A stretch of DNA of 64,000 nucleotides from Muricea muricata (taxonomy: Eukaryota; Cnidaria; Anthozoa; Malacalcyonacea; Plexauridae). Shown one piece after another: positions 9,853-56,714 of this stretch. The stretch spans positions 17,380,430-17,444,429 of the forward strand of contig OY979720.1 of assembly GCA_963855995.1 (NCBI GenBank). Reading direction: 5' to 3'. The position numbers were made by a program, and so were the translations under genes. The first letter of the stretch is position 1. Each line of letters begins with the position of its first letter. Under the pieces are notes generated by a model. That model searched no databases and was not told the DNA's origin. It saw only the letters and a list, made by a program, of their open reading frames with translations.

Positions 9853-9860
9853 GAATTAAT

Positions 9861-23520: not shown

Positions 23521-24312
23521 ACAAATGTTAAGCATGCTTGCCACTTGCTTCTTTGGGAAGACAACTTTACCCTGTTGTAGCGTCATTGATCTTTTGAAAT
23601 ATCCAAGATGGCAGAGGCCTAGCGTCTTTGTTATTTTTTTTCGTGTAGTATTTCAAGAAAAGAGCATGTTGTCAAAAACTCATTATTGCTATTTATAGAT
23701 ATTAGTTATAGATAGAAGTTAGAAACACTCCTGAAAAAATTATATCATTGTGCAAGATCACACAAAATGAAAAACGTTTCCTTCTCTCTAAATTTCTGGG
23801 CTTCATTTGCTTTCTTTTACCGCAGTTCATAGTAACGAGTATGTGTTGGGCTCTGTAACAATGAGTGTTTGAATATAGAAGTACATATAGCTGCACAAAT
23901 AAAAACACGTGGTGTATACAAGCAATTGTGTGATAAAGAAATAATGGCAGAATTTTTTAGCACTGTAGTTCGTTTGATATAGGAAGGAAATCAGGGGTAG
24001 CATTTCGATGCATGTTTTTGTTTCATTACATTCGTCTTGAAATCGATGGTTATCGATACCCATTGAGACCGAAAATATTTTTAAGCATTACCTTTGAGGG
24101 AACTACTTTGAAATTAAAAATAACAGCCTCGTAAACTAATTGTCCTTGTAGTTCATTGGACAATCACACAGTGGACAATTCATAGATTCAGTGAAAGAAA
24201 ATCAAAATAATGCCCTGGATGAGACCCAATTAAGGACCACTTACCATTCGTTTCACCACCAGGCACTTACCCCCACCCCCCTTCCGTCGCCCTTGGGCTT
24301 TTTTCTCTTTAG

Positions 24313-27300
24313 TTGCTCGGGCTTCGTCGACTTGCTGGCGTGCTTGCTCGTCGTATTGGCTCGTCGGCAGCTCGGAAAGCGCCAATTGCAAGTTCAACAA
24401 TTTTGTCTAGAATGGCGTGCAGAAAATCTTCAAGATATTCGAAGCAATCCAGCCTTTATTTCAAGGTAATATGCTTTCTTTTCTATCAGTAGTTGTAGAA
24501 GAATATCTATTTGTATAATATAGAGGAATTGTGTGGACAATCAGGGTGGGTTTAGCGAAATATTTGAGCATACAAAGCAAATATTTTGCACGTGTGAAAA
24601 TCATATTGGGTGTTCCCTATGGTCAGATATGGTTCCCTATCATTCCCAAATATAACCCCCAGTTTAAATGCAGTCTACTGCTAGTTTTTTGTTTGTTAGT
24701 ACCAGTAAGACAACTAATTAGGACTGCATAAAAGCCCAATGAAAATTGTGGTTTTTCAGCTGTAATTTTGCAAATTAAACATAATTATTTCCTTTCCCGT
24801 CCATTAATCTGACAGAACCATGTAACTTAAATTTAGTAGTGGATTCTGATAATAAGAAATAGATCCCTACTTTTTTCCTATCTAAGTCAACTAAAGGCAT
24901 TCTGTTAAATATTTTCTTTCTGCCAATCACCATCCCTATTACTTATTTCTCAATCAACTTAATAGCTGAATTGCTTTTCATTACAATATAGCAAAAAGTA
25001 TTTCATTTTCTTTTTGCTTCTAAATATTTGAATATGATAAATAAATTCAGCCCTCTAAAATGAGCTTGGCATTCAACAATGCTGACCTAAATGCCTATTG
25101 ACCTTCTAGGTTGATAACCAACCTAGGTTGGATTTAGGTGTGAATTTTTTGGTGACCTGAATTTCAATGGTTTTCGAGTGCTGTAAACTTGACTTTTCAT
25201 TACCTCCCCCACCCCTCCTTGTTGGTTAAATTTTCGGTAGGGTCTCAATGTGATTCAAATACTGAATCTAATGCTTGAGCAGGTCTGGCCCTGGAACTTG
25301 TCCTCATTAGAAGAGTACAAGTTGTTGCTCTGCCCAATGTTGTCGGCTTTCTCCAGGTACTCTGGTTCTTCCCACAGGGAAATTTGACTGTGTGGCTTAG
25401 GTAATATGGGAAGACAGCTGTTAGTATGTAGTGTTGAAATGACCCTGCCCTTGGAGCCAGGGGCATAGCCAGGATCTCCTCTCAAGGGAGTCCCAAAAAC
25501 CCAGGGCAGACCTGTTTTAGTATTAGATTCGGTATTAGATTGGCAGTTTTCTTGAGGGCAGCAATCCAGTCAGGGGGGACAGGCCCCTGGGCCTTTCTCT
25601 GGCAAGGCCAAGCTCAATAATGTATATATGCTCTAATTCAATCATGTCTGATCAAGGGTTTTATCATATATTTTGACATTTTTTAGATCTACAGCGTTTT
25701 GAAAGCTCGATGAATGCTTATCCAGTGGGTCCTCAAGTGAACACTGTTGATGAAAAGTGCATAGAAGGTCTTGATATCTTTATGTTTTATTTCAAATTGA
25801 AATGCTTTGAGTAGCATATATGATTTTCCAGAATTACTGGCTATGTTTATGTTTTGAAAAAATATTTTTGCCCATCACCAAAAATATGACAAGAAAGACA
25901 ATTTTCAACGTCACAATTATTTCATCATTCAACAGCAAACGGGGCAGTATAACTTAAAAATGTGAGTTTCATTCTCGTGTAATTTGATTGTCATTTGATG
26001 TAACTTTTTATCATAGAAAGTCTTATGTACTCAAAGCATTTTAATCTCAGAAAAAGTCAAATAATGATGAACTGTGTTTCACATCTTGTGATTTGTCTAC
26101 AGTAACACATTTCTGTTTGGTCTAGCACTTAATATGAAAAGCACATCCAAAACGCTTTAATGGTTTACTAATACAACTTGAATCAGTTGTAGTTCATGTT
26201 TTTTTTTTTAAAAAAGGTTGAGTTTGGCATTATTTGACTTTGTAATGTACTACTTTGTTAAGTTTACAGAGGAATTGAGGTGGTTTTATCAGAAACAAAA
26301 CATTTAATATCACACCAAAATTTCATTTTTATTTCCGGTTGTCAGTTTATCCACAGACTCAGTCTATTCACAGAAAATTTGTTACTGCAAGAACATGAAA
26401 AAACAGTCATTGTAATTTTTGATTAATTCAATGAAAAAGCATTTAAAAAAATATTTTGTTTCAAGACTTTCCATCTCAATCTTCTTTTGTTCAAGTCGAC
26501 TTTAAGCATTCGTTTGAAAGTCTGCAAAGTTCATTTAAAAATCACAACAGTCCTAGATGTTATTGGAGCATAATTTGAATATTGTTTGACGTAATTTGAA
26601 AATCCTTTGCAGTGTGAAAATCCTAAAAGTTAAAAAATACTTGGTATGGTGTCATTGTACTTTATCTTCAAAACAGACTTTGTGATTTTGTAACAGAACT
26701 TTCCTCCTTTAAGATGAACTGCTTAAGGTCAAAAGCTTGTTGGTCTTTTGCAAAGTGGAACTTGTTTGGAATTGAATTGAACTGAAGCAGTTAAACGTAC
26801 TTTATTTTGAGAGCAATGCAGATTGGTAAAAGTTAAAAAAAGGAAAAATACAACTAGGCAACCAGATTTTTTAGGCTATGTTTTGCAATATGTGAAAGTA
26901 TATAAGAATATAAGAATTTAAGTAGAAATTTGGTAATATTACAGGAAAGCTTTTTGTTACTATTTCACCAAAGCAATAGTATTTTATCAAATCAAATGGT
27001 AACTGTGAATCCAGGTTTGCACAGATGAGCAAGAAGCATGGAAGTCTAAGATTTTATTGCAAGTGTTTGGCATTGATACCCAACTGATACAAAGAGTTCT
27101 GTATCTGACAGAAATCTGCATACGATACAGACTTAAAACAATTACAAGTTGAGTTAAGTATTTTAATAGCATTAGGCAGTTTCAGATCTTACTTATTTCT
27201 TGACATAAGAAAGTTATTTTGCCGAACATGAAGTCTTTTGTATTAACAAATAAAATGGTCTTGGATTAGGTGGAGAAAAATTAGTTTCGATTTGATTTTT

Positions 27301-30300
27301 ATGATTTTTTGACAGTTTGATTTTTATGATTATAAGATATTTTCTTTAACTTTGAAAACATATTTCTGTATACTTTTCATATTGTCTGGTTGTGGTGAAT
27401 TTGTGTTTTTATGTAAACATTTCATTTGCTCCAGTTCAAGCTTGCTTTCCAAATAGTTCCACTTTGTAAATGTAGTTAAGTAATAATAATATAAGAAAAC
27501 AGGTTTTCATGGCATTTAAACATGGTCTTTTCATCAAGTAAGTAAAGATAAATTTATACTTCAAAGAGATTTGTTTTTAACCTGACAGTGAGACCTTCCA
27601 ATCAATCATTAAAACATTTTTTCAACTAGATTTATCTTTTCAATGTAAGACCAATCTTATATATTTTGACTTTTGGTTTGATTTTTAACATTAAAACTAC
27701 CAAAAGAAGTGTTTTGTTCCATTGAAAGTTATTTTGATGATTTTTGATTGTTAAAAACTTTGGTTGACTAACGACCAATCCCAAAAAATGGTCCACTGTT
27801 GAGTCACTCCAATGATAGCAAGGCGGCCAAGGCATTGCTCTTCATCTTTTTTGAGAATTTGGGAGCTTTTCTCAAGAAAACAATATCATTCGGACTAATA
27901 TAAAGGAAAAAAAACAAAGTTAGCAATACCTAATAAATTTGATACTCTCAGGTTAAAAACACAATCAGAAAAAATATATGGCTCTAAAAGTTCAAATTGT
28001 TTCCTATTCCCAATTTGCTATTTCTTCATAAAAAAGGGATCATTTCTGCATGATTTTTAAACATTTGGGAAAGTTTTTCCAGTTGCAATAAAATATTTTC
28101 ACTATTTGTTTCCTTTACCTGCCAGAAAGACATCAAAATTAGTCGTTTGTTTGTGTATTTTTTTGTCTGAACGATGTAAAAAAACCCTCAATTAAATCGT
28201 ATCTTTTTATTGGCAAAAGTACTTTTTACTTCCTGAAAGTCGTGGGTTAACTCCGGGTACTCCGGTTTCTTCCCACAAGAATATTAATAGGGTTGTTTAG
28301 ATCATAAAAAACATGATTAACTCTTGGTAACCTTTCTAATTGTAACAGCAGGCTTTTCCCATGCACCACAAATTTTAAAAAAGGAAAACTCTGATAAAAG
28401 CATCTCTTTGATGAACTAAATGCAACTATGAGCCATATGTTTTCTTTGTAATTGTGAAACATTGTGATGTCTGTATTAGATGATTTCTCTCTCAAATTGG
28501 GAAAATCACTTAATCACTTCCAGTTGTTTCATTATTATTTATATCTTGAAGTGTAAACATTTATCTCGAAGAGACCAATTTTTTTAACATTGCGTTTTCA
28601 CTTGTGTTTATTCATTTGTGTTAAGTGCAATGTCAATTGTTCTCCATCTGCCATGTTCTGTTTTCTTCTATTGTTATTTGAAATAAGTACAATGTGTGAT
28701 AGTTGATCTCTTTTTATTGTTATTCAAATTGTAATCTTTACAAATTCTTTTCAATAAATTGTTTACAAAATTTACATGTGACCCCTTTTTAATTAAAAAT
28801 TCAATTCCCATGGGAATTGAGAAATTAAATAAAAAAAATCCCCCTACCCCGGCCAGCTCCCCAAGTGCTACTTCCACCTAAGTAGAAGTACAAGTACATA
28901 TAGTCCAAGTACTTCTACTTAATTGCGGTGGAAGTAGCACTCGGAGAGCTGGCCGGGGTAGCCGGCGAAGAGAAGACCAACCTTGCAAATGCTAATGCAA
29001 TTGCTAAGTTGATCTTCCCTAGAGAGCAGCCGCGCGTACCTAACAAATTAAAACAACAAACGTTAGTGACTTAAGTACTTAGCATGCAAATTTGATTCCC
29101 AAAGCCAAAATGACAAGTTCCCCCCTCTGATCCTACCAACTGCCTACCTGCCTCAGTTCTAAGCTGTCTTCCTCGGTCCTAAACTCCTGCATTCCATTCG
29201 TTACCTTCACTTTCCTCACCATCGCACAGTCACTCACAGCTGGTAAACCCACATGCACCACCACCACCCCGACTGCCACCCAAATTTGAAAATTAAAAGA
29301 ATTAAAATTTCGGTAAAGTATGCGTAGTGAATGTTATTTTTTCGGATATTTTAGGCCAAACTTAAAGAAAAATTGAAGGAGGATCTATATGCAAACAGGT
29401 GAGCGCCAGCTACTTGTCTTAATACACGAAATTAACAAATTTCAAAATAAACAAAACTTAATTCTTTTTCTAAAACATACAAGCCCTAATTCTAACCCTA
29501 ATTTTTCATGTTAACATACAAAACTTGACGGGCAATTTTATTCAAAATTTCTTGTTACGACAGGCACACTAATAAACATTTGAGTTGGAATAATGTATTA
29601 ATAATGCTGATAATTTAGCTGTGATGACCGTAGATTTTAGTTGAAACATACTTTCAAAAATTTTAATTCCTTTAATAACCTAAACCCCATGCAACTTACA
29701 CACGGCGCACACCCTCGCAGTCCATACATTTAGCTAATAAATTACGTTATAAACAAAAAAACCAAAATAAAAAGATAAATTACGTTATCTCTAGCTACTT
29801 AAACCCACTTAGACTGAGTATTTGATTGAGTTTCAAGACGTAAAACCTTAGCTGAAAGGGCATGGGCTTTTTGTTGTGTTAACTGGTACGAAGTAAATGT
29901 AAGCCTAATACTTACCAATGTCTAAGGCTGGGTCAAATAAGCATGAGAATGCAAAGAGTATGAATAATTTGAAAACGCGAAACGCAACTTGAGTTTTTTC
30001 ATTTGAGGCTTATCTATAGGAACATGTAAATTCTAAACGGTTTAGTACAGTTACTCTTACTAAATAGTTCAAAGAATCAATATATTTTAAAATTTTACCG
30101 CAATTCTCATACTTATTTAACCGAAACGCCTTCTCATTTGCATGGTACCTCGCAGCTGCTCTCAAACCACTTCCGTAATTGGTTTTACTGAGCACAAACA
30201 ATGGTTTTATTGTTCCATTGTTCCTGCTTACCAAGCAAACCAAAAACCCGGAAGCACCAAGATACTTATCATATTCATATTCAAAGAGGATTCTCGTATA

Positions 30301-31537
30301 AATTAAGTCTCACCATGAATTTAAGGGCTGATTATATGGTCCCGCTTACCCGGGATTAAGTGAAGCGTAAAAATGTCATTTTATGAAACGAGACGACCAA
30401 AGTTCGAATGCTTTCAGCATTGATCAATACAAAGATAGATTTAACAAAAATTAATGCGATATACACCATTTTGTTTACTTCATATTTCGACAAAACGAAA
30501 ATCTCAAGCAATCAAGGTTAAGCATTTTTTACAACGTAAACTGACTTATTTCAATACCTCAAAATCATGTTACGCGTCACGTAATCCCGGGTAAACGGGG
30601 ATCATATAATCAACCCCCCTAAGTATTCAGGGTTGGTAGATTGGTAGATTAACAATGCTCATTGTTTGCCTTTGTATTTGCCTTTTGTTCTCTTTGTTAT
30701 TTTGATGTTACTAATGACGGTTTGGCTTATTTATTCATAAAATCTACCAACCCTGTAAGTATTACCATGAAAACAAAGCAAGCAGTATTCCCATGGGAAT
30801 TTAGAATGCCAAAAAACGCATTGATGATTCAAATTAACAGAGAAATATACAAATATTATTTTCCCCCTGGGAATTAGAATAAAAATATCTCGATTCCCTT
30901 GTTTTAAACATATATGATCTTAGAATATTTTAATTCAATCTCAATTTTTATGTCAATTTTTTGCTTTTTCTTCTTTCACAACGAAAAACAATGATTTTAT
31001 TCAACGAGAAACAATAGAATTTATTAAATCCTCTTTGATCTCTCAATAAGTATCTTGTTTTCTACTAACTTACATTTGTATAACTTCCAATACTGTCGTA
31101 TTAGCAATGTCTAGCTTGCTTTTTCATTCTTGTGGGTTTTTTTCTTTTGTCGGCCATATCTTTCAGCATCGTTCATTCTGGTCTTTTCTTCTTGAATTTC
31201 GTTACGTCTTATCACCTAATAGTATTGATTGTAGACTACGATTATGGATATAACTATGTATTGTATAAAACTGTTCTAAAAAGAAGTAAACTAAAAAGGA
31301 AACGTTTTGCTTTACTTAACGTAGTTGTGAATCATTTTCAACATCAAACAAAAAACTGTTTCTGTTAACATGCAAAATTTGACGGTAATTTTCGTCAAGT
31401 ATTCATGCCAACTATTTCATAAGATTGAATCGTTTTCATTTAAAGGTTCCAAGGTTAGGGGTATACCCGACAAAAGAGCTTCGTGTTCATATAAATGACC
31501 CATTGAACTCTATGAAACACTGGAACAACAACTCCAG
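24313..31537 (+). CDS. Candidate exons of an unidentified spliced gene, left-arm copy
   Basis: Four short open blocks have good splice sites and match in the other arm. They are 24411-24465 (AG acceptor TTTTGTCTAG; GVQKIFKIFEAIQPLFQ), 25687-25767 (RFESSMNAYPVGPQVNTVDE), 29355-29398 (AKLKEKLKEDLYANR) and 31424-31537 (HLKVPRLGVYPTKELRVHIN then DPLNSMKHWNNNS). Exons 1 to 2 join in phase through the split codon G-AT, and exons 3 to 4 join in phase. At least one exon is missing between 25767 and 29355 because the phases do not meet. Against the right-arm copy, exon 1 is identical and exons 2 and 3 each differ by one synonymous base. I recognise no family. A longer exon starting at 24313 is possible, but its extra part is more divergent. 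Confidence 0.45.
28251..28278 (+). repeat. SINE-like core fragment
   Basis: CTCCGGGTACTCCGGTTTCT followed by TCCCACA resembles the conserved central domain of a widespread invertebrate SINE group, as I recall the MetaSINE core. Related text occurs at 25344-25376 and, weakly, near 35671-35695. Mirror copies lie near 51240-51267. Heads and tails could not be delimited here. Confidence 0.4.
28982..29039 (-). CDS. Weak exon candidate on the minus strand (mirror 50480-50537)
   Basis: On the minus strand a good acceptor (TTTAATTTGTTAG, or TTTGTCAG in the mirror) and a CAAG/GTTGGT donor bound 58 bases. The bases appear identical in the two arms. They would join in phase to the exon at 34831-34912, giving MYARLLSREDQLSNCISICK after the junction. 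A second frame is also open, so the coding call is weak. Confidence 0.25.
30325..30618. mobile_element. 294-bp MITE with ~46-bp inverted termini and TTAA-type target
   Basis: The left end GGGCTGATTATATGGTCCCG is the imperfect reverse complement of the right end. Both arms run on through TTACCCGGGATTA to GCGTAA. TTAA precedes the element at 30321 and the partly mutated CTAA follows at 30619. The same site in tandem unit B (around 32059-32066) has only a single uninterrupted TTTAAGTAT, an empty site. A TTAA target is typical of piggyBac-like elements. The GGG terminus is not the usual piggyBac CCC, so I do not assign the superfamily. Confidence 0.8.
30628..30755. mobile_element. 128-bp hAT-type MITE with 8-bp target duplication
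   Basis: The termini CAGGGTTGGTAGATT and AATCTACCAACCCTG are perfect inverted repeats, flanked by the 8-bp duplication TAAGTATT at 30620-30627 and 30756-30763. CAGGG ends with 8-bp duplications are hAT hallmarks. It landed in the flank of the TTAA MITE. The right arm lacks it at the corresponding point near 48657-48666. The 54-codon open frame crossing it is chance. Confidence 0.9.
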
Positions 31538-31680
31538 GTAAAAGCGTTTGGGTGAACAATGAGGTTTATCAAACATTATTATTATTTATTGCAAATATTT
31601 TAGGAGTTTTGATTGGTTAAGAGCTAAAGATTAAATCGTCATATCCGCTTGGTAGTTGCCCAAATTTGGGGTTGAAAATA

Positions 31681-31759
31681 AATATACGACATTATGACTC
31701 ATTTCGTCGTATATTGAAAACAAATATACGACATTATGAGTCATTTCGTCGTATATTGA
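31681..31759. repeat. Tandem palindromic repeat, ~42-bp unit (2 copies)
   Basis: The unit has arms ATATACGAC and GTCGTATAT around ATTATGAGTCATTT, separated by GAAAACAA. There are two copies here, three at 32985-33107 in tandem unit B, and mirror blocks at 46363-46487 (three) and 47713-47790 (two). It resembles no CRISPR array, because the spacers are short and identical. Confidence 0.8.
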
Positions 31760-32727
31760 CTTCCTTGTAATCTGACAATTGTTTTAAGAATATTTTTCTG
31801 TTCCATTAATAGCAGTTTGTGTCTTCTTACTTTCAAAGCGAGCGTGTAAACTGAGTTTAACATATTTTCAAAAAATAATAAAACAATTATTGAATTCAGT
31901 TCTCGCAGGATATGAGGAATTATTAAGGCAGAGGTTTGTGTTATCTGCTGAAGCCGAAGGCTGAGGTTGCTTTACCAAGCAAACCAAAACCCGGAAGCAC
32001 CAAGATACTTATCATATTCATAATCAAAGAGGATTCTCGTATAAATTAAGTCTCACCATGAATTTAAGTATCACCATGAAAACAAAGCAAGCAGTATTCC
32101 CATGGGAATTTAAAATACCAAAAAACGCATTGATGATTCAAATTAACAGAGAAATATACAAATATTATTTTCCCCCTGGGAATTAGAATAAAAACATCTC
32201 GATCCCCTTGTTTTAAACATATGATCTTAGAATATTTTCATTCAATCTCAATTTTTAAGTCAATGTTTTGCTTTTTCTTCTTTCACAACGAAAAACAATG
32301 ATTTTGTTCAACGAGAAACAATAGAATTTATTAAATCCTCTTTGATCTCTCAATAAGTATCTTGTGCTCTACTAACTTACATTTGTATAACTTCCAATAC
32401 TGTCGTATTAGCAATGTCTAGCTTGCTTTCTCATTCACATTTCTTCTTTTGTCGGTCCATATCTTTCAGCATCGTTCATTCTGGTCTTTTCTTCTTGAAT
32501 TTCATTACATCTTATTACCTAAAAATATTGATTGTAGACAACGATTATGGAAAATTCGTTAGCTGTTGTATAAAACTATTCTAAAAAGAAGTAAACTAAA
32601 AGGAAAAGTTTTGCTTTACGTAACGTAGTTGTGAATCATTTTCAACATCAAACAAAAAACTGTTTCTGTTAACATGCAAAATTTGACGGTAATTGTCGTC
32701 AAGTATTCATGCCAACTATTTCATTAG

Positions 32728-32841
32728 ATTGAATCGTTTTCATTTAAAGGTTCCAAGGTTAGGGGTATACCCGACAAAAGAGATTCGTGTTCGTATAAAT
32801 GACCCATTGAACTCTATGAAACACTGGAACGACAACTCCAG
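32728..32841 (+). CDS. Duplicated copy of the exon candidate at 31424-31537
   Basis: The same length (114 nt), phases, acceptor position (CATTAG here) and CAG/GTAAAA donor are kept as in the unit A copy. The reading changes by a few residues (KEIRVRIN in place of KELRVHIN, and NDNS for NNNS). It could be a mutually exclusive or tandem exon of the unidentified gene, or simply a by-product of the tandem duplication. Mirror copies are at 46626-46739 and 47928-48041. The 47928 copy has changed its last exon base from G to A. Confidence 0.4.
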
Positions 32842-33255
32842 GTAAAAGCGTTTGGGTGAACAATGAGGTTCATCAAACATTATTATTATCTATTGAAAAT
32901 ATTTTAGGAGTTTTGATTGGTTAAGAGCTAAAGATTAAATCGTCATATCCGCTTGGTAGTTGCCCAAATTTGGGGTTTAAAATAAATATACCACATTATG
33001 AGTCATTTCGTCGTATATTGAATTAAACAAATATACGACATTATGAGTCATTTCGTCGTATATTGAAAACAAATATACGACATTAAGACTCATTTCGTCG
33101 TATGTTGATTGACCTTATAATCTGACAATTGTTTTAAGAATATTTTTTCTGTTCCATTAATAGCAGTTTGTGTCTTCTTACTTACAAAGCACGCGTTTAA
33201 ACTGAGTTTAAAATATTTTCAAAAAATAATAAAACAATTGTTGAATTCAGTTCTC

Positions 33256-33359
33256 GCAGGATATGGGGAATTATTAAGGCAGAGGTTTGTGTTATCTGCC
33301 TCAGCCTTCGTCTTCGGCAATAACACAAACCTCTGCCTTAATAATTCCTCATATCCTGC
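33256..33359. repeat. 104-bp near-perfect hairpin
   Basis: GCAGGATATGGGGAATTATT through TTATCTGCC is followed, after a short GC-rich loop, by its reverse complement ending CATATCCTGC. A half element lies at 31904-31965 at the end of tandem unit A. The mirror is at 46111-46214. It is probably a short fold-back transposon. Confidence 0.8.
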
Positions 33360-33584
33360 TCGACCTCATTCAATAACTGGTTAATGTTGTGAACAGTTTA
33401 CCGTAGTTTTCTCGGCTATTTCCTTTCTCAAAAAGAAACCAAGCTGTAAGTCCATAAATTATAACATCACTTTTTAAATCAAAGTGTAGACATTAAATCT
33501 CGATACATTCCTGGCACATGGTGTCAACCGCGCCGACAAGAAGTAATGGAGAGGGACTGACAATTGAACTGCAATTGATCTCAG

Positions 33585-33600
33585 CCCCCCCCCCCCCCCC
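33585..33600 (+). repeat. C16 homopolymer (mirror G14 at 45872)
   Basis: Sixteen consecutive C residues; the mirror position holds fourteen G. Length differences in homopolymers between arms may be true microsatellite drift or sequencing error. Confidence 0.9.
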
Positions 33601-34279
33601 GCGAGAAGTTGCGCGCCTCTGCATGTGAAGCCTAGTTTCATTTTGGTCGTAAAGCCTGATTCACACCTGTCGTAAGAATCGGGGATTTTCTCCTTCTGAT
33701 GGATGTGAATGAGTATGTGAACAAATTAAATATGGGACAAATTTTAGATTGCTTTTGCAAGGGTATAGAACTGCCTTAATCACATCGGCCAGAAGAAGCC
33801 GACTCAGATTTTTACGACTAGTGTAAACCAGGCTTAACTGTCGTCGCAAAGTCATTCTCGACGATGTGATATAGTCTGGATCTACCTTTTCATTTGTGGA
33901 CTGTATTCAAATTAGTTTTAGTATAATTTTTTTAGTAAATAATGGTTTTCAAGCATTTTGATTGGTTGCCTAACCAGTAAATACGAGGCATTATTTACTA
34001 GTTGGCATTTTTTTAAAATGACCGCTAATGAAAGTAGTTTTAATGTTTTATACTTTTGCCAATATTAGCAAATGGAGAAAATTGCATTGATATAAACTCA
34101 AAGAATACAAACAAACTTTGATGTTGAACTATTTTAAGGTAATAGATCGTCTGCAAATAACTCATCAAGTACTTATTAAGTAAACTTAAGTCTTTAGGAA
34201 TTTTCAGAAGTAAACTGTATTCATAAAAGACGACAGTGCATTTTATACACGTAAATTTTACTAAAGAAATTATACTAAA

Positions 34280-34382
34280 ACAATTATTCGCCTCAGGCTC
34301 AGTGATTATAGTAAATATTCACCTCGACTTCGTCCCGGTGAATGTTCACCAATAACCACTTCGCCTTCGGCGAATAATTGTT
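34280..34382. repeat. Fold-back element with ACAATTATTCG ends
   Basis: The ends ACAATTATTCGCC and GGCGAATAATTGT are inverted repeats around an interior that also pairs (GTGAATGTTCACC and neighbours). It belongs to the same family as 9648-9718 and is mirrored at 45099-45201. Confidence 0.75.
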
Positions 34383-34503
34383 AAATATTAAGAGTAGATA
34401 CTCTAGTCTAGAAAGCTCACATACTCTATCTCATCGCTCACCTTCATGTATTTACAACATTCACGACTAAATAGAAACTAGGCTAAAAGTGCACATTTCT
34501 TGC

Positions 34504-34736
34504 GGCTGCTTTTCAGTTATCCGTGTTTTACACGTACGTGCACGCACGTAAAAGTTTAAACTCTTCTATTTATAGTTTGTATTTAACAAATAGAATCACT
34601 AAAGTATGCTACTTCGTAGGGAATGCTGAATTCTCTCCATCAAAATATTTGTTTATTTCAAATTTAATATTGAAACTGATTTAGACTTTTACGTGCGTGT
34701 ACGTACGTGTGAAAAACGCGTAACTGGAAAACAGCC
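34504..34736. mobile_element. 233-bp MITE with ~50-bp termini rich in alternating purine-pyrimidine
   Basis: The left end GGCTGCTTTTCAGTTATCCG and the right end (reverse complement GGCTGTTTTCCAGTTACGCG) form inverted repeats. Both continue into ACACGTACGTGCACGCACGT-type sequence, which alternates purine and pyrimidine and is of a kind able to form Z-DNA. The mirror at 44744-44976 has the same length. The target duplication is unclear. Confidence 0.75.
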
Positions 34737-34830
34737 TTACGAAATTGAAGTTTTCCGCAGCAACACGAATTTTGAATCGACTAGAATCGCCGCTAACATT
34801 TGGGCACAAATATTTTTGCTGTGCACTTAC

Positions 34831-44649: not shown

Positions 44650-47600
44650 GTAAGTGCACAGCAAAAATATTTGTGCCCAAATGTTAGTGGCGATTCTAAT
44701 CGATTCAAAATTCGTGTTGCTGCGGAAAACTTCAATTTTTTAAGGCTGTTTTCCAGTTACGCGTTTTTCACACGTACGTACACGCACGTAAAAGTCTAAA
44801 TCAGTTTCAATATTAAATTTGAAATAAACAAATATTTTGATGGAGAGAATTCAGCATTCCCTACGAAGTAGCATACTTTAGTGATTCTATTTGTTAAATA
44901 CAAACTATAAATAGAAGAGTTTAAACTTTTACGTGCGTGCACGTACGTGTAAAACACGGATAACTGAAAAGCAGCCGCAAGAAATGTGCACTTTCAGCCT
45001 AGTTTCTATTTAGTCGTGAATATTGTAAATACATGAAGGTGAGCGATGAGATAGAGTATGTGAGCTTTCTAAACTAGAGTATCTACTCTTAATATTTAAC
45101 AATTATTCGCCGAAGGCGAAGTGGTTATTGGTGAACGTTCACCGGGCGAAGTCGAGGTGAATATTTACTATAATCACTGAGCCTGAGGCGAATAATTGTT
45201 TTAGTATAATTTCTTTAGTAAAATTTACGTGTATAAAATGCACTGTCGTCTTTTATGAATACAGTTTACTTCTGAAAATTCCTAAAGACTTAAGTTTACT
45301 TAATAAGTACTTAATGAGTTATTTGCAGACGATCTATTACCTTAAAATAGTTTAACGTTGTTTGTATTCTTTGAGTTTTTATCAATGCAATTTTCTCCAT
45401 TTGCAATATTGGCAAAAGTATAAAACATTAAAACTACTTTCATTAGCGGTCATTTTAAAAAAATGCCAACTAGTAAATAATGCCTCGTATTTACTGGTCA
45501 GGCAACCAATCAAAATGCTTGAAAACCATTATTTACTAAAGAAATTATACTAAAACTAATTTGAATACAGTCCACAAAAGAAAAGGTAGATCCAGACTAT
45601 ATCACATCGTCGAGAATGACTTTGCCACGACAGTTAAGCCTGGTTTACACTAGTCGTAAAAATCTGAGTCGGCTTCTTCTGGCCGATGTGATTAAGGCAG
45701 TTCTATACCCTTGCAAAAGCAATCTAAAATTTGTCCTATATTTAATTTGTTCACATACTCATTCACATCTGTCAGAAGGAGAAAATCCCCGATTCTTACG
45801 ACAGGTGTGAATCAGGCTTTACGACCAAAATGAAACTAGGCTTCACATGCAGAGGCGCGACACTTCTCGCAGGGGGGGGGGGGGGCTGAGATCAATTGCC
45901 GTTCAATTGTCAGTCCCTCTCTATTACTTCTTGTCGGCGCGGTTGACACCATGTGCCAGGAATGTACCGAGATTTAATGTCTACACTTTGATTTAAAAAG
46001 TGATGTTATAATTTATGGACTTACAGCTTGGTTTCTTTTTGAGAAAGAAAATAGCCGAGAAAACTATGGTAAACTGTTCACAACATTAACCAGTTATTGA
46101 ATGAGGTCGAGCAGGATATGAGAAATTATTAAGGCAGAGGTTTGTGTTATTGCCGAAGACGAAGGCTGAGGCAGATAACACAAACCTCTGCCTTAATAAT
46201 TCCCCATATCCTGCGAGAACTGAATTCAACAATTGTTTTATTATTTTTTGAAAATATTTTAAACTCAGTTTAAACGCGTGCTTTGTAAGTAAGAAGACAC
46301 AAACTGCTATTAATGGACAGAAAAAAATATTCTTAAAACAATTGTCAGATTATAAGGTCAATCAACATACGACGAAATGAGTCTTAATGTCGTATATTTG
46401 TTTTCAATATGCGACGAAATGACTCATAATGTCGTATATTTGTTTTCAATATACGACGAAATGAGTCATAATGTCGTATATTTATTTTCACCCCAAAATT
46501 TGGGCAACTACCAACCGGATATGACGATTTCACCTTTAGCTCTTAACCAATCAAAACTCCTAAAATATTTTCAATAGATAATAATAATGTTTGATGAACC
46601 TCATTGTTCACTCAAACGCTTTTACCTGGAGTTGTCGTTCCAGTGTTTCATAGAGTTCAATGGGTCATTTATACGAACACGAAGCTCTTTTGTCGGGTAT
46701 ACCCCTAACCTTGGAACCTTTAAATGAAAATGATTCAATCTAATGAAATAGTTGGCATGAATACTTGACGACAATTACCGTCAAATTTTGCATGTTAACA
46801 GAAACAGTTTTTTGTTTGATGTTGAAAATGATTCACAAATACGTTACGTAAAGCAAAACTTTTCCTTTTAGTTTACTTCCTTTTAGAATAGTTTTATACA
46901 ACAGCTAACGAATTTTCCATAATCGTTGTCTACAATCAATATTTTTAGGTAATAAGATGTAACGAAATTCAAGAAGAAAAGACCAGAATGAACGATGCGG
47001 AAAGATATGGACCGACAAAAGAAGAAATGTGAATGAAAAAGCAAGCTAGACATTGCTAATACGACAGTATTGGGAAGTTATACAAATGTAAGTTAGTAGA
47101 AAACAAGATACTTATTGAGAGATCAAAGAGGATTTAATAAATTATACTGTTTCTCGTTGAACAAAATCATTGTTTTTCGTTGTGAAAGAAGAAAAAGCAA
47201 AACATTGACTTAAAAATTGAGATTGAATGAAAATATTCTAAGATCATATGTTTAAAACAAGGGGAATCGAGATATTTTTATTCTAATTCCCAGGGGGAAA
47301 ATAATATTTGTATATTTCTCTGTTAATTTGAATCATCAATGCGTTTTTTGGCATTTTAAATTCCCATGGGAATACTGCTTGCTTTGTTTTCATGGTAATA
47401 CTTAAATTTATGGCGAGACTTAATTTATACGAAAATCCTCTTTGATTATGAATATGATAAGTACCTTGGTGCTTCCGGGTTTTGGTTTGCTTGGTAAAGC
47501 AACCTCAGCCTTCGGCTTCGGCAGATAACACAAACCTCTACCTTAATAATTCCTCATATCCTGCGAGAACTGAATTCAATAATTGTTTTATTATTTTTTG

Positions 47601-47927
47601 AAAATATTTTAAACTCAGTTTAAACGCTCGCTTTGTAAGTAAGAGGACACAAACTGGTATAAATGGAACAGAAAAAATATTCTAAAAACAATTGTCAAAT
47701 TACAAGGTCAGTCAATATACGACGAAATGACTCATAATGTCGTATATTTGTTTTCAATATACGACGAAATGACTCATAATGTCGTATATTTTTTTTGAAC
47801 CCCAAATTTGGGCAACTGCCAAGCCGATATGACGATTTCACCTTTAGCTCTTAAGCAATCAAAACTCCTAAAATATTTGCAATAAATAATGTTTGACGAA
47901 CCTCATTGTTCACCCAAACGCTTTTAC

Positions 47928-50900
47928 TTGGAGTTGTCGTTCCAGTGTTTCATAGAGTTCAATGGGTCATTTATATGAACACAAAGCTCTTTTGTCGGGT
48001 ATACCCCTAACCTTGGAACCTTTAAATGAAAACGATTCAATCTTATGAAATAGTTGGCATGAATACTTGACGAAAATTACCGTAAAAATTTGCATGTTAA
48101 CAGAAACAGTTTTTTGTTTGATGTTGAAAATGATTCACAACTACGTTACGTAAAGCAAAACGTTTCCTTTTTAGTTTACTTTTTTTTAGAACAGTTTTAT
48201 ACAATAGCTAATGAATTTTCCATAATCGTTGCCTACAATCAATATTATTAGAAGGTGATAAGATGTCACGAAATTCAAGAAGAAAAGACCAGAATGAACG
48301 ATGCTGAAAGATATGGCCCGACAAAAGAATAAAAACCCACAAGAATGAAAAAGCAAGCTAGACATTGCTAATACGACAGTATTGGAAGTTATACAAATGT
48401 AAGTTAGTAGAAAACAAGATACTTATTGAGAGATCAAAGAGGATTTAATAAATTCTATTGTTTCTCGTTGTGAAAGAACAAAAGCAAAAAATTGACTTAA
48501 AAAGATCACATGTTTAAAACAAGGGGAATCGAGGTATTTTTATTCTAATTCCCAGGGGGAATATAATATTTGTAATTTCTGTTAATTTGAATCATCAATG
48601 CGTTTTTTGGTATTTTAAATTCCCATGGGAATACTGCTTGCTTTGTTTTCATGGTAGCACTTAGGGTTATACAGCATGAGTAAAAAAAACTGATGCTCTT
48701 TCAAATTCAAATTAGCTGCGAATTTCATTACGGTGTATTCCCATGGGTCTGTAGTGATGTCTTGTTTCTGACTTTGTCTTGTTTCTGACAATTCCTGCAC
48801 GGCTAAAATTATGCATTTTAACTTCCACTGGGAATTAGATTTTGTTTTAGAATTGAATACGATAATACTGATTACATGATCTCGTTTACTCGGGAAGCGT
48901 AACATGATTTTGAGGCATTGAAATAAGTCATAGTTTACGTTGTAAAAAATGCTTAATCCTTGATTGTTTGAGATTTTCGTTTTGCCGAAATATGAAGTAA
49001 ACGAAATGGTGTATATCGCATTAATTTTTGTTAAATCTATCTTTGTATCGATCAATGCAGAAAGCATTTGAACTTTGGTCGTTTCGTTTCATAAAATGAC
49101 ATTTTTCAATACCTCAAGATCATTTTACGCTTCACTTAATCCCGGGTAAGCGGGACCATATAATCAGCCCTTTAAATTCATGGTGAGACGTAATTTATAC
49201 GAGAATCCTCTTTGATTATGAGTGTGGTAAGTATCTTGGTGCTTCCGGGCTTTTGGTTTGCTTGGTAAGCAGGAACAATGGAACAATAAAACCATTGTTT
49301 GTGCTCACTAAAACCAATTACGGAAGTGGTTTGAGAGCAGCTGCGAGGTACCATGCAAATGAGAAGGCGTTTCGGTTAAATAAGTATGAGAATTGCGGTA
49401 AAATTTTAAAATATATCGATCCTTTGAACTATTTAGTAAGAGTAACTGTACTAAGCCGTTTAGAATTTACATGTTCCTATAGATAAGCCTCAAATGAAAA
49501 AACTCAAGTTGCGTTTCGCGTTTTCAAATTATTTATACTCTTTGCATTCTCATGCTTATTTGACCCAGCCTTAGACATTGGTAAGTATTAGGCTTACATT
49601 TACTTCGCACCAGTTAACACAACAAAAAGCCCATGCCCTTTCAGCTAAGGTTTTACGTCTTGAAACTCAATCAAATACTCAGTCTAAGTGGGTTTAAGTA
49701 GCTAGAGATAACGTAATTTATCTTTTTATTTTGGTTTTTTTGTTTATAACGTAATTTATTAGCTAAATGTATGGACTGCGAGGGTGTGAGCCGTGTGTAA
49801 GTTGCATGGGGATAGGCTTATTAAAGGAATTAAAATTTTTGAAAGTATGTTTCAACTAAAATCTATCATCACAGCTAAATTATCAGCATTAATTAATACA
49901 TTATTCCAACTCAAATGTTTATTAGTGTGCCTGTCGTGACAAGAAATTTTGAATAAAATTGCCCGTATTTTCAAGTTTTGGATGTTAACATGAGAAATTA
50001 GGGTTAGAACTAGGGTTTGTATGTTTTATAAAAAGAATTAAGTTTTGTTTATTTTGAAATTTGTTAATTTCGTGTATTAAGACAAGTAGCTGGCGCTCAC
50101 CTGTTTGCATATAGATCCTCTTTCAATTTTTCTTTAAGTTTGGCCTAAAATATCCGAAAAAATAACATTCACTACGCATACTTTACCGAAATTTTAATTC
50201 TTTTAATTTTCAAATTTGGGTGGCAGTCGGGGTGGTGGTGGTGCATGCGGGTTTACCAGCTGTGAGTGACTGTGCGATGGTGAGGAAAGTGAAGGTAACG
50301 AATGGAATGCAGGAGTTTAGGACCGAGGAAGACAGCTTAGGACCGAGGAAGACAGCTTAGAACTGAGGCAGGTAGGCAGTTGGTAGGATCAGAGGGGGGA
50401 ACTTGTCATTTTGGCTTTGGGAATCAAATTTGCATGCTAAGTACTTAAGTCACTAACGTTTGTTGTTTTAATTTGTCAGGTACGCGCGGCTGCTCTCTAG
50501 GGAAGATCAACTTAGCAATTGCATTAGCATTTGCAAGGTTGGTCTTCTCTTCGCCGGCTACCCCGGCCAGCTCTCCGAGTGCTACTTCCACCGCAATTAA
50601 GTAGAAGTACTTGGACTATATGTACTTGTACTTCTACTTAGGTGGAAGTAGCACTTGGGGAGCTGGCCGGGGTAGGGGGATTTTTTTTATTCAATTTCTC
50701 AATTCCCATGGGAATTGAATTTTTAATTAAAAAGGGGTCATATGTAAATTTTGTAAACAATTTATTGAAAAGAATTTGTAAAGATTACAATTTGAATAAC
50801 AATAAAAAGAGATTAACTATCACACATTGTACTTATTTCAAATAACAATAGAAGAAAACAGAACATGGCAGGTGGAGAACAATTGACATTGCACTTAACA

Positions 50901-53900
50901 CAAATGAATAAACACAAGTGAAAACGCAATGTTAAAAAAACTTGGTCTTTTCGAGATAAATGTTTACACTTCAAGATATAAATAATTATGAAACAACTGC
51001 AAGTGATTAAGTGATTTTCCCAATTTGAGAGAGCAATCATCTAATACAGACATCACGATGTTTCACAATTACAAAGAAAACATATGGCTCATAGTTGCAT
51101 TTAGTTCATCAAAGAGATGTTTTTAATGAGAGTTTTCATTTTTTAAAATTTGTGGTGCAGGGGAAAAGCCTGCTGTCACAATTAGAAAGGTTATCAAGTG
51201 TTAGTCATGTTTTTTATGATCTAAACAACCCTATTAATATTCTTGTGGGAAGAAACCGGAGTACCCGGAGTTAACCCACGACTTTCAGGAGGTAAAAAGC
51301 ACTTTCGCCAATAAAAAAATACGATTTAATTGAGGTTTTTTTTACATCGTTCAGACAAAAAAATACACAAACAAACGACTAATTTTGATGTCTTTCTGGC
51401 AGGTAAAGGAAACAAATAGTGAAAATATTTTATTGCAACTGGAAAAAATATTCCATATGTTTAAAAATCATGCAGAAATGATCCCTTTTTTATGAAGAAA
51501 TAGCAAATTGGGAATAGGAAACAATTTGAACTTTTAGAGCCATATACTTTTTCTGATTGTGTTTTTAACCTGAGAGTATCAAATTTATTATGTATTGCTG
51601 ACTTTGTTTCTTTGCCTTTATATTAGTCCGAATGATATTGTTTTTTTGAGAAAAAGCTCCCAAATTCTCAAAAAAGATGAAGAGCAATGCCTTGGCCGCC
51701 TTGCTATCATTGAAGTGACTCAACAGTGGACCATTTTTTTGGGATTGGTCGTTTAGTCAACCCAGTTTTTAACAATCAAAAATCATCAAAATAACTTTCA
51801 ATGGAACAAAACACTTCTTTTGGTAGTTTTAATGTTAAAAATCAAACCAAAAGTCAAAATATATAAGATTGGTCTTACATTGAAAAGATAAATCTAGTTG
51901 AAAAAAAAGTTTTAATGATTGATTGGAAGGTGTCACTGTCAGGTTAAAAACAAATCTCTTTGAAGTATAAATTTATCTTTACTTACTTGATGAAAAGACC
52001 ATGTTTAAATGCCATGAAAACCTGTTTTCTTATATTATCATTACTTAACTACATTTACAAAGTGGAACTATTTGGAAAGCAAGCTTGAACTGGAGCAAAT
52101 GAAATGTTTACATAAAAACACAAATTCACCACAACCAGACAATATGAAAAGTTTACAGAAATATGTTTTGAAAGTTAAAGGAAATATCTTATAATCATAA
52201 AAATCAAACTGTTACCAAATCGAAACTAATTTTTCTCCACCTAATCCAAGACCATTTTATTTGTTAATACAAAAGACTTCATGTTCAGCAAAATAAATTT
52301 CTTATGTCAAGAAATAAGTAAGATCTGAAACTGCCTAATACTATCAAAATACTTAACTCAACTTGTAATTGTTTTAAGTCTGTATCGTATGCAGATTTCT
52401 GTCAGATACAGAACTCTTTGTATCAGTTGGGTATCAATGCCAAACACTTGCAATAAAATCTTAGACTTCCATGCTTCTTGCTCATCTGTGCAAACCTGGG
52501 ATCACAGTTACCACTTGATTTGATAAAATACTATTGCTTTGATGAAATAGTAACAAAAAGCTTCCATGTAATATTACCAAATTTCTACTTAAATTCTTAT
52601 ATTCTTATATACTTTCACATATTGCAAAACATAGCCTAAAAAATCTGGTTTCCTAGTTGTATTTTTCCTTTTTTTAACTTTTACCAATCTGCATTGCTCT
52701 CAAAATAAAGTACGTTTAACTGCTTCAGTTCAATTCAATTCCAAACAAGTTCCACTTTGCAAAAGACCAACAAGCTTTTGACCTTAAGCAGTTCATCTTA
52801 AAGGAGGAAAGTTCTGTTACAAAATCACAAAGTCTGTTTTGAAGATAAAGTACAATGACATCATACCAAGTATTTTTTAACTTTTAGGATTTTCACACTG
52901 CAAAGGATTTTCAAATTACGTCAAACAATATTCAAATTATGCTCCAATAACATCTAGGACTGTTGTGATTTTTAAATGAACTTTGCAGACTTTCAAACAA
53001 ATGCTTAAAGTCGACTTGAACAAAAGAAGATTGAGATGGCAAGTCTGGAAACAAAATATTTTTTTAAATGCTTTTTCATTGAATTAATCAAAAATTATAA
53101 TGACTGTTTTTTCATGTTCTTGCAGAAACAAATTTTCTGTGAATAGACTGAGTCTGTGGATAAACTGACTACGGGAAATAAAAATGAAATTTTGGTGTGA
53201 TATTAAATGTTTTGTTTCTGATAAAACCACCTCAATTCCTTTGTAAACTTAACAAAGTAGTACATTACAAAGTCAAATAATGCCAAACTCAATAAAGGGC
53301 ACAACCTTTTTTTAAAAAAAAACATGAACTACAACTGATTCAAGTTGAATTAGTAAACCATTAAAGCCTTTTGCATGTGCTTTTCATATTAAGTACTAGA
53401 CCAAACAGAAATGTGTTACTGTAGACAAATCACAAGATGTGAAACACAGTTCATCATTATTTGACTTTTTCTGAGATTAAAATGCTTTGAGTACATAAGA
53501 CTTTCTATGATAAAAAGTTGCATCAAATCACAATCAAATTACACGAGAATGAAACGGACATTTTTAAGTTATACTGTCCCGTTTGCTGTTGAATGATGAA
53601 ATAATTGTGACGTTCAAAATTGTCTTTCTTGTCATATTTTTGGTGATGGGTAAAAATATTTTTTCAAAACATAAACATAGCCAGTAATTCTGGAAAATCA
53701 CATATGCTACTCAAAGCATTTCAATTTGAAATAAAACATAAAGATATCAAGACCTTCTATGCACTTTTCATCAACAGTGTTCACTTGAGGACCCACTGGA
53801 TAAGCATTCATCGAGCTTTCAAAGCGCTGTAGATCTAAAAAATGTCAAAATATATGATAAAACCCTTGATCAGACATGATTGAATTAGAGCATATATACA

Positions 53901-55110
53901 TTATTGAGCTTGGCCTTGCCAGAGAAAGGCCCAGAGGCCTGTCCCCCCTGACTGGATTGCTGCCCTCAAGAAAACTGCCAATCTAATACCGAATCTAATA
54001 CTAAAACAGGTCTGCCCTGGGTTTTTGGGACTCCCTTGAGAGGAGATCCTGGCTATGCCCCTGGCTCCAAGGGCAGGGTCATTTCAACAATACATACTAA
54101 CAGCTGTCTTCCCATATTACCTAAGCCACACAGTCAAATTTCCCTGTGGGAAGAACCAGAGTACCTGGAGAAAGCCGACAACATTGGGCAGAGCAACAAC
54201 TTGTACTCTTCTCAAGAGGACAAGTTCCAGGAGCAGACCTGCTCAAGCATTAGATTCAGTATTTGAATCACATTGAGACCCTACTGAAAATTTAACCAAC
54301 AAGGAGGGGCGAGGGAGGTAATGAAAAGTAAAGTTTACAGCACTCGAAAACCATTGAAATTCAGGTCACCAAAAAATTCACACCTAAATCCAACCTAGGT
54401 TGGTTATCAACCTAGAAGGTCAATAGGCATTTAGGTCAGCATTGTTGAATGCCAAGCTCATTTTAGAGGGCTGAATTTATTTGTCATATTCAAATATTTA
54501 GAAGCAAAAAGAAAATGAAATACTTTTTGCTATATTGTAATGAAAAGATATTCAGCTATTAAGTTGATTGAGAAATAAGTAATAGGGATGGTGATTGGCA
54601 GAAAGAAAATATTTAACAGAATGCCTTTAGTTGACTTAGATAGGAAAAAAGTAGGGATCTATTTCTTATTATCAGAATCCACTATTAAATTTAAGTTACA
54701 TGGTTCTGTCAGATTAATGGACGGGAAAGGAAATAATTATGTTTAATTAGCAAAATTACAGCTGAAAAACCACAATTTTCATTGGGCTTTTATGCAGTCC
54801 TAATTAGTTGTCTTACTGGTACTAACAAACAAAAAACTAGCAGTAGACTTCATTTAAACTGGGGGTTATATTTGGGAATGATAGGGAACCATATCTGACC
54901 ATAGGGAACACCCAATATGATTTTCACACGTGCAAAATATTTGCTTTGTATGCTCAAATATTTCGCTAAACCCACCCTGATTGTCCACACAATTCATCTA
55001 TATTATACAAATAGATATTCTTCTACAACTACTGATAGAAAAGAAAGCATATTACCTTGAAATAAAGGCTGGATTGCTTCGAATATCTTGAAGATTTTCT
55101 GCACGCCATT
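47928..55110 (-). CDS. Candidate exons of the unidentified spliced gene, right-arm copy
   Basis: Read right to left: 55056-55110, 53754-53834, 50101-50144, 47928-48041, with the duplicated exon at 46626-46739 and a possible exon at 43280-43342. Bases in the first three match the left arm apart from one synonymous change in each of two exons. Exon 47928-48041 carries Arg to Cys and Asn to Asp changes and an altered last base (AA instead of AG before GT), so splicing there may be weakened. A hAT-type insertion lies upstream of the first exon, 115 bases from its acceptor. Confidence 0.4.
48660..49170. mobile_element. Rearranged copy of the TTAA MITE in the right arm
   Basis: The right end (CCATATAATCAGCCC then TTTAA, ending 49170) matches the terminus of the left-arm MITE. 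A degenerate second terminus lies near 48873-48905 (GATTACATGATCTCGTTTAC). About 200 further bases (48660-48870) have no counterpart in the left arm and may be another insertion. A 150-codon minus-strand frame (48615-49067) crosses it and looks like chance. Confidence 0.5.
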
Positions 55111-55224
55111 CTAAACAAAATTGTTGAACTTGCAATTGGCGCTTTCCGAGCTGCCGACGAGCAAATACGACGAGCAAGCACGCCAACAAGTCGACGAAGC
55201 CCGAGCAACTGAAGAGAAAAAAGC

Positions 55225-55698
55225 CAGGGTTGGTAGTTTGGCGTATTAGAGGCCAAATAACTCGATTTTGGCTTCTTTTTTTCTTGCTTGGCCTCAAAAA
55301 AGAAGTTTGGCTTTTTGGCTACTTGTTGGCCTCTTTCTATTTCAAAGTAATGCTTGGAAAATGTTTCGATCTTAGTTTGATTATATATGTTTAATCGTCA
55401 TAATAATGTAGGTATGTATACTAATTGTGATACTTTTAGTATATGAGGATATATAATTAGTATTCATGGAATAAATTAGTTGTGCTACGCAGTACACTAG
55501 TCATCACACTAGTTGTAAAATAAAAGCTGAACAGTGTCAATACCCAAAACTATTAGGAATGAGTTTGCGATAAATTTGAACTTTTTAGCATTTATTTGGC
55601 CGTGTTAGAAAAATTGTAGTTTGGCCTCTTTTGGTAGATTTTGGCCTCTTTTTGCATAGCTATTTGGCTCCAAGCATGCGCAGGGCCTACCAACCCTG
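55225..55698. mobile_element. 474-bp hAT-type nonautonomous element, right arm only
   Basis: The perfect 12-bp termini CAGGGTTGGTAG and CTACCAACCCTG are flanked by the 8-bp duplication AAAAAAGC at 55217-55224 and 55699-55706. The left arm at the same place (about 24295-24310) reads through a single copy of the target, an intact empty site. The termini are shared with the 128-bp element at 30628-30755, indicating one family. No transposase frame is present. Confidence 0.93.
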
Positions 55699-56714
55699 AA
55701 AAAAGCCCAAGGGCGACGGGAGGGGTTGGGGGTAAGTGCCTGGTTGTGAAACGAATGGTAAATGGTCCCTCTAATTGGGTCTCATCCAGGGCAGTATTTT
55801 GATTTTCTTTCACTGAATCTATGAATTGTCCAATGTGTTTACTTACCCTTAATTTACTTTTTCAACAAAAAAGTGAAGTAAAGGTGAGGCCAATCAATCG
55901 CTTGGAATTTTTGGTCAAAAATTGCTCGTAAAGACTAACCTCTCAGGTACTATGGTAAACATTGCTTAAATTGTCTTGCCAATGAACTACAAAAACAATT
56001 AGTTTACCAGGCTGTTATTTTTCATTTCAAAGTAGTTCCCTCAAAGGTAATGCTTAAAAATATTTCCTGTCTCAATGGGTATCGATAACCATCGATTTCA
56101 AGACGAATGCAATGAAACAAAAACATGCATCGAAATGCTACCCCTGATTTCCTTCCTATATCAAACGAACTACAGTGCTAAAAAATTCTGCCATTATTTC
56201 TTTATCACACAATTGCTTGTATACACCACGTGTTTTTATTTGTACAATTTGTATATGTACTTCTATATACAAACACTCATTGATACAGAGCCCAACACAT
56301 ACTCGTTGCTATGAACTGTGGTAGAAGAAAACAAATGAAGCCCAGTAACTTAGAGAGAAGGAAACGTTTTTCATTTTGTGTGATCTTGCACAATGATATA
56401 ATTTTTTCAGGATGTTTCTAACTTTTGACTTAAATGGTAAGGGATCAGTTATTCTTTTTTTACCCCACCATTTTCTCATTTTGAAGAGATATGACAATAC
56501 ATTTACATTTTGGCTTATCGAAACCTTTGAAATATCTATAATTAGCAATAATGAGTTTTTGACAACATGCTCTTTACTAGAAATACTACACGAAAAAAAA
56601 TAACAAAGACGCTAGGCCTCTGCCATCTTGGATATTTCAAAAGATCAATGACGCTACAACAGGGTAAAGTTGTCTTCCTAAAGAAGCAAGTGGCAAGCAT
56701 GCTTAACATTTGTA

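Follow-up and report, generated by a model that had tools for sequence, protein, structure and literature searches.

On sex chromosomes, large ampliconic palindromes have arms that are homogenized by arm–arm exchange, while inverted triplications have been studied mostly as new mutations in patients or in laboratory yeast. Here, we analyze a 64,000-nucleotide stretch of the genome of the octocoral Muricea muricata (GenBank assembly GCA_963855995.1, contig OY979720.1, positions 17,380,430 to 17,444,429; hereafter the window), in which a 33-kb palindrome lies beside the gene KANSL3. Several described systems come close to it. In origin-dependent inverted-repeat amplification (ODIRA), junctions form at pre-existing interrupted inverted repeats of 2–14 bp, mostly 40–80 bp in total, and the resulting palindromes are later stabilized when secondary rearrangements delete an arm (PMC10766183, PMC10766186); long palindromes are regarded there as unstable (PMC10766186). 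In human duplication–inverted triplication–duplication (DUP-TRP/INV-DUP), the breakpoints lie in inverted repeats (PMC4352052). Finally, foldback transposons of the Galileo type have inverted repeats that reach about 1.26 kb (PMC3573991). We read the coral locus as an old inverted amplification that probably arose by replication-based, ODIRA-like fold-back and was then reshaped by recombination, with unusual fossils preserved and a dispersed, hairpin-prone noncoding repeat as its substrate; from the sequence, we give this reading a probability of about 0.62. Titles and abstract openings yielded no published account of such a palindromic locus in octocoral genomes.

Comparing the window with itself by BLAST returned one inverted match pairing 30749-48668 with itself over 18,016 columns (97.3% identity, coordinate sum 79417 throughout), which is continued outward by blocks at 24296-30612/48869-55225 (96.4%), 24166-24305/55698-55838 (93.0%), 23716-24159/55979-56424 (95.1%), and, outermost, 23519-23703/56531-56715 (97.8%). 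These matches exclude a chance inverted repeat. They define a left arm, B1 (23519-39714, forward strand), and an inverted right arm, B1^ (39767-56715, reverse strand), around a 52-bp loop, c1 (39715-39766), that the arm alignment places at the palindrome's center. The inner end of the arm is an imperfect internal inverted repeat, E (37942-39714, forward strand), with halves 79% alike. An earlier note, made from the letters of the window alone, had described a 33-kb palindrome with 16-kb arms and a 52-base center, and this description stands, its limits being off by at most 2 bases. Within the arms, 42-bp tandem repeats occur at 32979-33108 and 31672-31759 (mirrors at 46362-46490 and 47712-47796), and a 1.3-kb direct duplication in the left arm (30756-31948/32065-33299) is mirrored in the right.

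The arms are far from identical. With the loop counted in, they differ by 412 substitutions in 16,132 aligned columns, and each has insertions of its own: 94, 130, 482, and 67 bp plus smaller ones in the right arm and 8–25 bp in the left. Arms that are 97.4% identical, with lineage-specific patterns (see below), rule out that a polymerase simply folded back on one molecule; the note had argued as much from the same unlikeness and from the arm-specific insertions, which it took for transposons. The divergence is also stepped. Over columns present in all five copies of B that we describe below, the arms differ at 371 of 15,562 columns up to 39714, made up of 120/4,422 at 23519-28450 (2.7%), 246/7,489 at 28451-36050 (3.3%), and merely 5/3,651 in the inner block, 36051-39714. 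The window holds no N, and its palindrome, confirmed in the assembly, probably exists in the genome.

How far does the rearranged structure extend? We compared 264 kb—the window plus 200 kb around it—with itself, keeping window coordinates beyond 64000, and searched the whole assembly (453 Mb in 74 contigs, the window lying on contig C5). Writing M for the KANSL3 segment, B for the arm, ^ for an inverted copy, and X and Y for the outer flanks, the assembly reads directly, over ~150 kb, X-M1-B1-c1-B1^-T-M2-B2-c2-B2^-M3^-T^-B3-Y, where T is a junction sequence. M1 and M2 are direct and M3 inverted; B1, B2, and B3 are forward and B1^ and B2^ inverted. The structure thus runs ~91 kb past the window. 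An "old inverted duplication," one of the two origins that the note had offered, was right in kind, but it describes just part of a larger inverted amplification that, in the assembly, has five arms and three KANSL3 segments. The note had missed the direct repeat of 5457-12113 at 56831-63492 (94.2% identity).

The individual segments lie as follows. The left flank X (1-5456, forward) is unmatched in the second M copy, and the direct match starts at 5457, where M1 begins (5457-23518, forward; direct to 56831-76709, inverted to 138126-108045). A ~780-bp dispersed repeat found by genome search (22733-23517, forward) ends where B1 begins. T (56716-56831, forward) fills the ~115 bases between the right arm and M2 (56831 to ~76524, forward; window part to 64000). 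An insertion of ~1.3 kb found only in M2 occupies 63493-64811 (window part to 64000), a 1,321-column gap in M1 and M3: the adjacent M1 bases 12112 and 12113 have their counterparts at M2 63492 and 64812. Outside the window follow B2 (76525-~92341, forward), B2^ after loop c2 (to 108213, reverse), M3^ (108045-138126, reverse; interrupted by insertions and, at 120710-125709, by 5,000 N), and B3 (138242-~155537, forward), which leads into Y. Among the M3-only insertions, 118836-119348, beside the 5,000 N, has an open reading frame (ORF) for a DEAD-box helicase, and 128312-132415 contains what appears to be a 30-bp minisatellite.

The junction sequences record how these segments meet. The c2 loop is the exact reverse complement of the 52-bp c1 loop; therefore, the center has been assembled twice, in two forms. 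B3 passes through the same loop sequence (c2 orientation, one base changed) and on into Y with no turn-back. Because it does so, an unfolded junction survives, and we read B3-Y as the ancestral one. T consists of 115–116 bases from one end of a ~300-bp family of miniature inverted-repeat transposable elements (MITEs), which rules out a unique spacer; the family search gave 51 matches, many as close inverted pairs. T recurs inverted between M3 and B3 (138126/138242), with the same breakpoints and 98% identity. The ~780-bp repeat has at least 37 long matches beyond M1, M2, and M3 among the best 40 candidates. Copies of it stand in mirror positions with equal or near-equal scores at C12:1669266-1721727 and C3:8105654-8140761, a hint of further palindromes.

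Could the palindrome be an assembly artifact, in which two haplotypes, or a strand and its reverse complement, were joined at the hairpin-prone E and no such chromosome exists? M2 and M3 differ at merely 204 of 18,377 columns (1.1%), as alleles might (M1 and M2 differ at 754 of 18,142), and relatives of the arm on C11, C6, and C16 have mirrored flanks, the expectation for an assembler hairpin at a perfect palindrome. At c1, however, the flanks are unlike, with M1 on one side and T-M2 on the other. A haplotype join would give M1-B1-B1^-M1^; instead, a direct M2 follows after half a MITE. The arms are ~2.5% apart with sharp switch points, there are at least four types of B, and the same loop is assembled in opposite orientations. 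Moreover, among the best 40 of 486 candidates in the genome, the start of the M2 segment occurs at three places; each of them lies on C5, and the last, 75 kb downstream, is inverted. We therefore consider an artifact at c1 improbable, and the note's other proposal, two haplotypes joined head to head, is rejected there on the unlike flanks and the number of arm types.

How are the five B copies related to one another? Their 515 variable sites fall into few patterns. B1^ and B3 together differ from B1, B2, and B2^ at 271 of 11,911 columns before 36050 and at 0 of 3,651 after; the last such site is 36007, and past 36089 mostly B3 alone differs. This places a recombination breakpoint at 36007-36089, and the corresponding right-arm position is near 43,370 (coordinate sum 79417). 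Patterns that single out B1, or B2 with B2^, account for 69 of the 4,422 columns up to 28450 and for 8 of the 11,140 beyond it. Both breakpoints, near 36.05 and 28.45 kb, were picked from the same data as the counts. Such sharp switches are as expected from crossovers or conversion tracts. At least four sequence types are thus represented among the five copies, whereas a single-copy locus could contribute no more than its two alleles, and these types and the two decayed KANSL3 copies argue strongly against head-to-head haplotypes of a single-copy locus.

KANSL3 itself provides a second record. The long exon at 18984-21491 has named relatives in octocorals, which bears out the note's naming of the gene: a Dendronephthya gigantea protein is 51% identical over 99% of the query, a Xenia relative 57% over 31%, and other entries up to 79%. 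In M1, 12 exon matches to the protein P0005 span 11217-21476 (tblastn; the last-exon ORF runs to 21491), and 11 of the 12 are stop-free; exon 5 has one stop, in a part that we read as intron. M2, whose exon 1 matches at 62596-63006, has a 4-bp deletion in exon 9 in common with M3 that is absent from M1, and in both copies, but not in M1, the acceptor region of exon 5 is rewritten. M3 additionally has its frame changed in exon 1 and contains two large insertions. The long exon 12 is open in all three alike. When its amino-acid changes are polarized by the protein P0002, 13 fall on the M2/M3 side and 4 on the M1 side, with a further 1 in M2 alone, 2 in M3 alone, and 3 unclear; P0003 gives 12, 3, 1, 2, and 4, respectively. 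M2 and M3 thus resemble decaying paralogues rather than alternative working alleles. The amplicon has one apparently open KANSL3 copy, M1, and two that look like decaying ones.

What sequence of events could have produced this order? From X-M1-B1 and B3-Y, we infer an ancestral order X-M-B-Y. A nascent strand would first have switched template at the inner edge of E, using a short inverted repeat interrupted by the 52-nt loop, so that B was copied back to front, yielding an inverted triplication with palindromic junctions. The far palindrome would then have been lost through a deletion or template jump from the MITE at the M/B border to the start of M, a step that we propose because the second junction is not a palindrome; the outcome would be X-M-B-c-B^-T-M-B-Y. 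Next, inverted B copies may have recombined, flipping T-M in one version with a crossover near 36.05 kb, and a further B–B exchange may have set the flipped version behind the first, giving the assembled order; here the breakpoints are visible in the alignments, whereas the pathway is conjectural. The pattern in the inner 3.7 kb, homogenized in both arms, would be explained most simply by conversion during break repair initiated at the unstable center. We propose no cellular function for the locus; the outcome would be an unstable, recombining amplicon.

The flip step makes a prediction, namely that B3 should be of the second-copy type outside the crossover and of the Y-adjacent type inside it, with B2^ the reciprocal. 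B3 agrees well with this; B2^ conforms in the outer part, up to 28.45 kb, and in the inner part, from 36.05 kb. Several observations weigh against the scheme. Between the two breakpoints, B2^ is B1-like, whereas the simplest flip model would have second- or third-copy sequence there, and one further conversion is needed to reconcile the two. The interrupted inverted repeat at the center, read by eye, is a weak signature (~3 bp plus a bulged match), and the second junction (B^-half MITE-M start) is not palindromic. A stretch of 5,000 N lies within M3, and the B2-c2 join could be an assembler's switch between haplotypes. Finally, exon 12 of M1 and M2 differs at 20 synonymous and 21 nonsynonymous codons, with 0.038 synonymous (dS) and 0.012 nonsynonymous (dN) substitutions per site. 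A dN/dS of ~0.33 implies that constraint acted while much of this divergence built up, as would be expected from late decay or from old divergence between alleles no less than from an early duplication.

The haplotype switch deserves a fuller statement. Each haplotype may carry either X-M-B-c-B^-T-M-B-Y or its flipped form, the assembler having chained both at B2, which would imply two M and three B per haplotype. This explanation is compatible with a fold-back origin, and we put it not far short of even odds. The allele-like distances between M2 and M3 (1.1%), B2 and B2^ (34/15,562), and B1^ and B3 (73/11,911 outside the inner block) speak for it, and B1 and B2 differ at only 10 of 7,489 columns at 28451-36050, where a switch would be easy. 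However, unequal crossing-over in that same interval yields the same product, and B2 and B2^ have the 28.45-kb switch in common, which must predate both because both carry it. The c2 palindrome, which lies outside the window, is possibly such a switch; the window's own palindrome stays real either way.

An ODIRA-like fold-back followed by recombination can now be set against the known systems. As in DUP-TRP/INV-DUP, an inverted copy lies between direct ones (B1 forward, B1^ reverse, B2 forward; M1 and M2 both forward), and of the two junctions one falls in an inverted repeat, c1 lying at the edge of E and T in the MITE. As in ODIRA at yeast SUL1, the middle copy is inverted and the second junction has been rearranged; the 52-nt loop of the palindromic junction falls in the usual size range of 40–80 bp, and the unfolded copy at B3-Y has a short repeat on either side of it, although this was read by eye with no control and 3-bp repeats are common. 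Unlike in ODIRA, the second junction is not palindromic at a short inverted repeat; hence, we call the event ODIRA-like only. Unlike fresh cases of either kind, the locus is old, with arms ~2.5% apart and two KANSL3 copies decayed, and it sits in a reference assembly and has recombined further. Sex-chromosome palindromes are similar in their large, exchange-homogenized arms but different in that the arms here are noncoding and have no known sex linkage. The divergent arms, unfolded junction, two loop orientations, and breakpoints would make the birth and ageing of an amplicon readable at one locus.

Is B confined to this locus? Genome searches with 23300-30000 gave 178 matches, of which the 35 longest listed were compared, and searches with 36600-39766 gave 400, of which 43 were compared; B is therefore not single-copy. 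Inverted pairs with constant coordinate sums (differences of 0–7 bases) occur on C7, C4, C9, and C10 and at the C5 locus, and relatives of B form palindromes of ~24–32 kb elsewhere in the assembly. The note's remark that palindromes this large are rare is accordingly weakened for this genome, where related inverted pairs stand at several other places. The arms appear noncoding as far as tested: nine ORFs taken from arms in the window and on C7 and C9 have no Pfam match, only 27 of 141 indels between the window arm and its C7 relative are multiples of 3, and codon periodicity appears in 1 of 26 arm windows, so a coding role was rejected. As side observations, C10 holds a minus-plus-minus triple of the repeat with near-equal scores (12635519, 12674328, 12694787), and C4:17285563 and 17519144 form an outward-facing pair 235 kb across with a constant coordinate sum. 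Direct pairs 99–181 kb apart (C13:9529478/9679731, C16:3566332/3706490, C2:23442294/23541010, and C5:7791242/7972504) are possible segmental or false duplications.

One relative of the window arms, C7:6432706-6464523, is a ~31.8-kb palindrome that aligns with them in collinear blocks at about 77–94% identity. Its arms differ at 81 of 14,858 columns, 79 of which are confined to the outer ~9.3 kb and 2 to the ~5.6 aligned kb nearest the center, a gradient from the center outward that matches the window's. A 1.7-kb insertion in its left arm only has an ORF that we named by eye as reverse transcriptase-like. Could the window palindrome then be a native transposon, a giant palindromic element of the long-arm foldback type that inserted without secondary rearrangement? 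B is dispersed, C7 has this homologous palindrome, and a palindrome on C9 has unlike flanks at its terminus. Yet the C7 center corresponds to window positions 38706-39011, ~0.9 kb from the window's own center; the latter lies at the end of E's right half, and the two halves of E are only 79% alike. Where B3 gives way to Y, only ~0.5 kb could be a remnant of an old right arm, and the B at C5:16542191-16558347 has no partner among the listed matches (its middle 7.2 kb lying outside the comparison). Direct insertion of a ready-made palindrome therefore seems unlikely.

A second family, apparently young, is related to B. The element at C9:11107175-11136566 is a ~29-kb palindrome, noncoding where read, whose center has arms 95% alike around a noncoding loop of ~575 bp. 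A 4-kb piece of its arm matches at least 36 other long places along its entire length of 4,000 bases, with ~100% identity (best 37 of 3,635 candidates), including nine facing pairs 22.3–23.7 kb across. The next 4 kb outward has at least 39 other long matches, of which 33 begin at query positions 1171-1181, two at 1154 and 1159, and four at 1297-1511, and this clustering indicates an element terminus near 1175. After merging, the 77 rows represent at least 59 loci spread over 13 contigs. Both arms were seen at 14 of these and one arm at the other 45, and the number of loci is a lower bound because the best candidates alone were scored. Copies are 98–100% identical, marking a young, high-copy family. 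One terminus is common to eight ends of four elements, and the C9 flanks differ, with no clear target-site duplication at C9.

The flanks of other copies are less simple. On C11, C6, and C16, two 110-base pieces, with ~70 bases outside the element, mirror exactly; 5 kb further out, C11 (12175277-12214856) is still mirrored at 60 of 60 bases and C6 is not. Either these palindromes formed in place and included the flank, or the reads were shorter than the palindrome and the assembler doubled back inside it, and we temper our claims on other loci for this reason. The same observation is a technical warning: palindromes exceeding read length may duplicate flanks in assemblies.

How is the young family related to B? 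The C9 type resembles the window arm in patches, with about 65–94% similarity. Neither the 264-kb C5 region nor C7 yielded a match to its terminus, and nothing in the window arm or C7 matched its outer 0.8 kb better than a reversed-sequence control, so we regard the two as related subfamilies rather than as one element. The long inverted repeats, inner sub-repeats, and noncoding dispersed copies recall foldback transposons. Unlike in Galileo, the arms here are ~12–16 kb, and neither a transposase nor a clear target-site duplication turned up: none of the nine arm ORFs has a Pfam match, ~6.9 kb of the C9 arm being outside this coverage. Dispersed palindromic relatives nevertheless suggest a mobile repeat whose center promotes fold-back events. 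We tentatively suggest, at appreciably less than even odds, a giant noncoding palindromic mobile family (~29 kb with ~14.5-kb arms; center ~0.6 kb in the single element read) whose hairpin-prone center repeatedly seeds fold-back duplications of the DNA next to it. The window would then be an old case from a related subfamily, in which KANSL3 was duplicated and the ancestor, intermediate, and flipped product were kept side by side.

Outside the amplicon, the left flank X contains a pantothenate-kinase-like exon at 722-1246 (Pfam Fumble, E 6.9e-17) and a tRNA-like sequence at 4214-4285, whose score of 37.6 bits exceeds the gathering score of 29. Downstream of Y, repeated units at 190208-200223 include three similar 247-aa ORFs.

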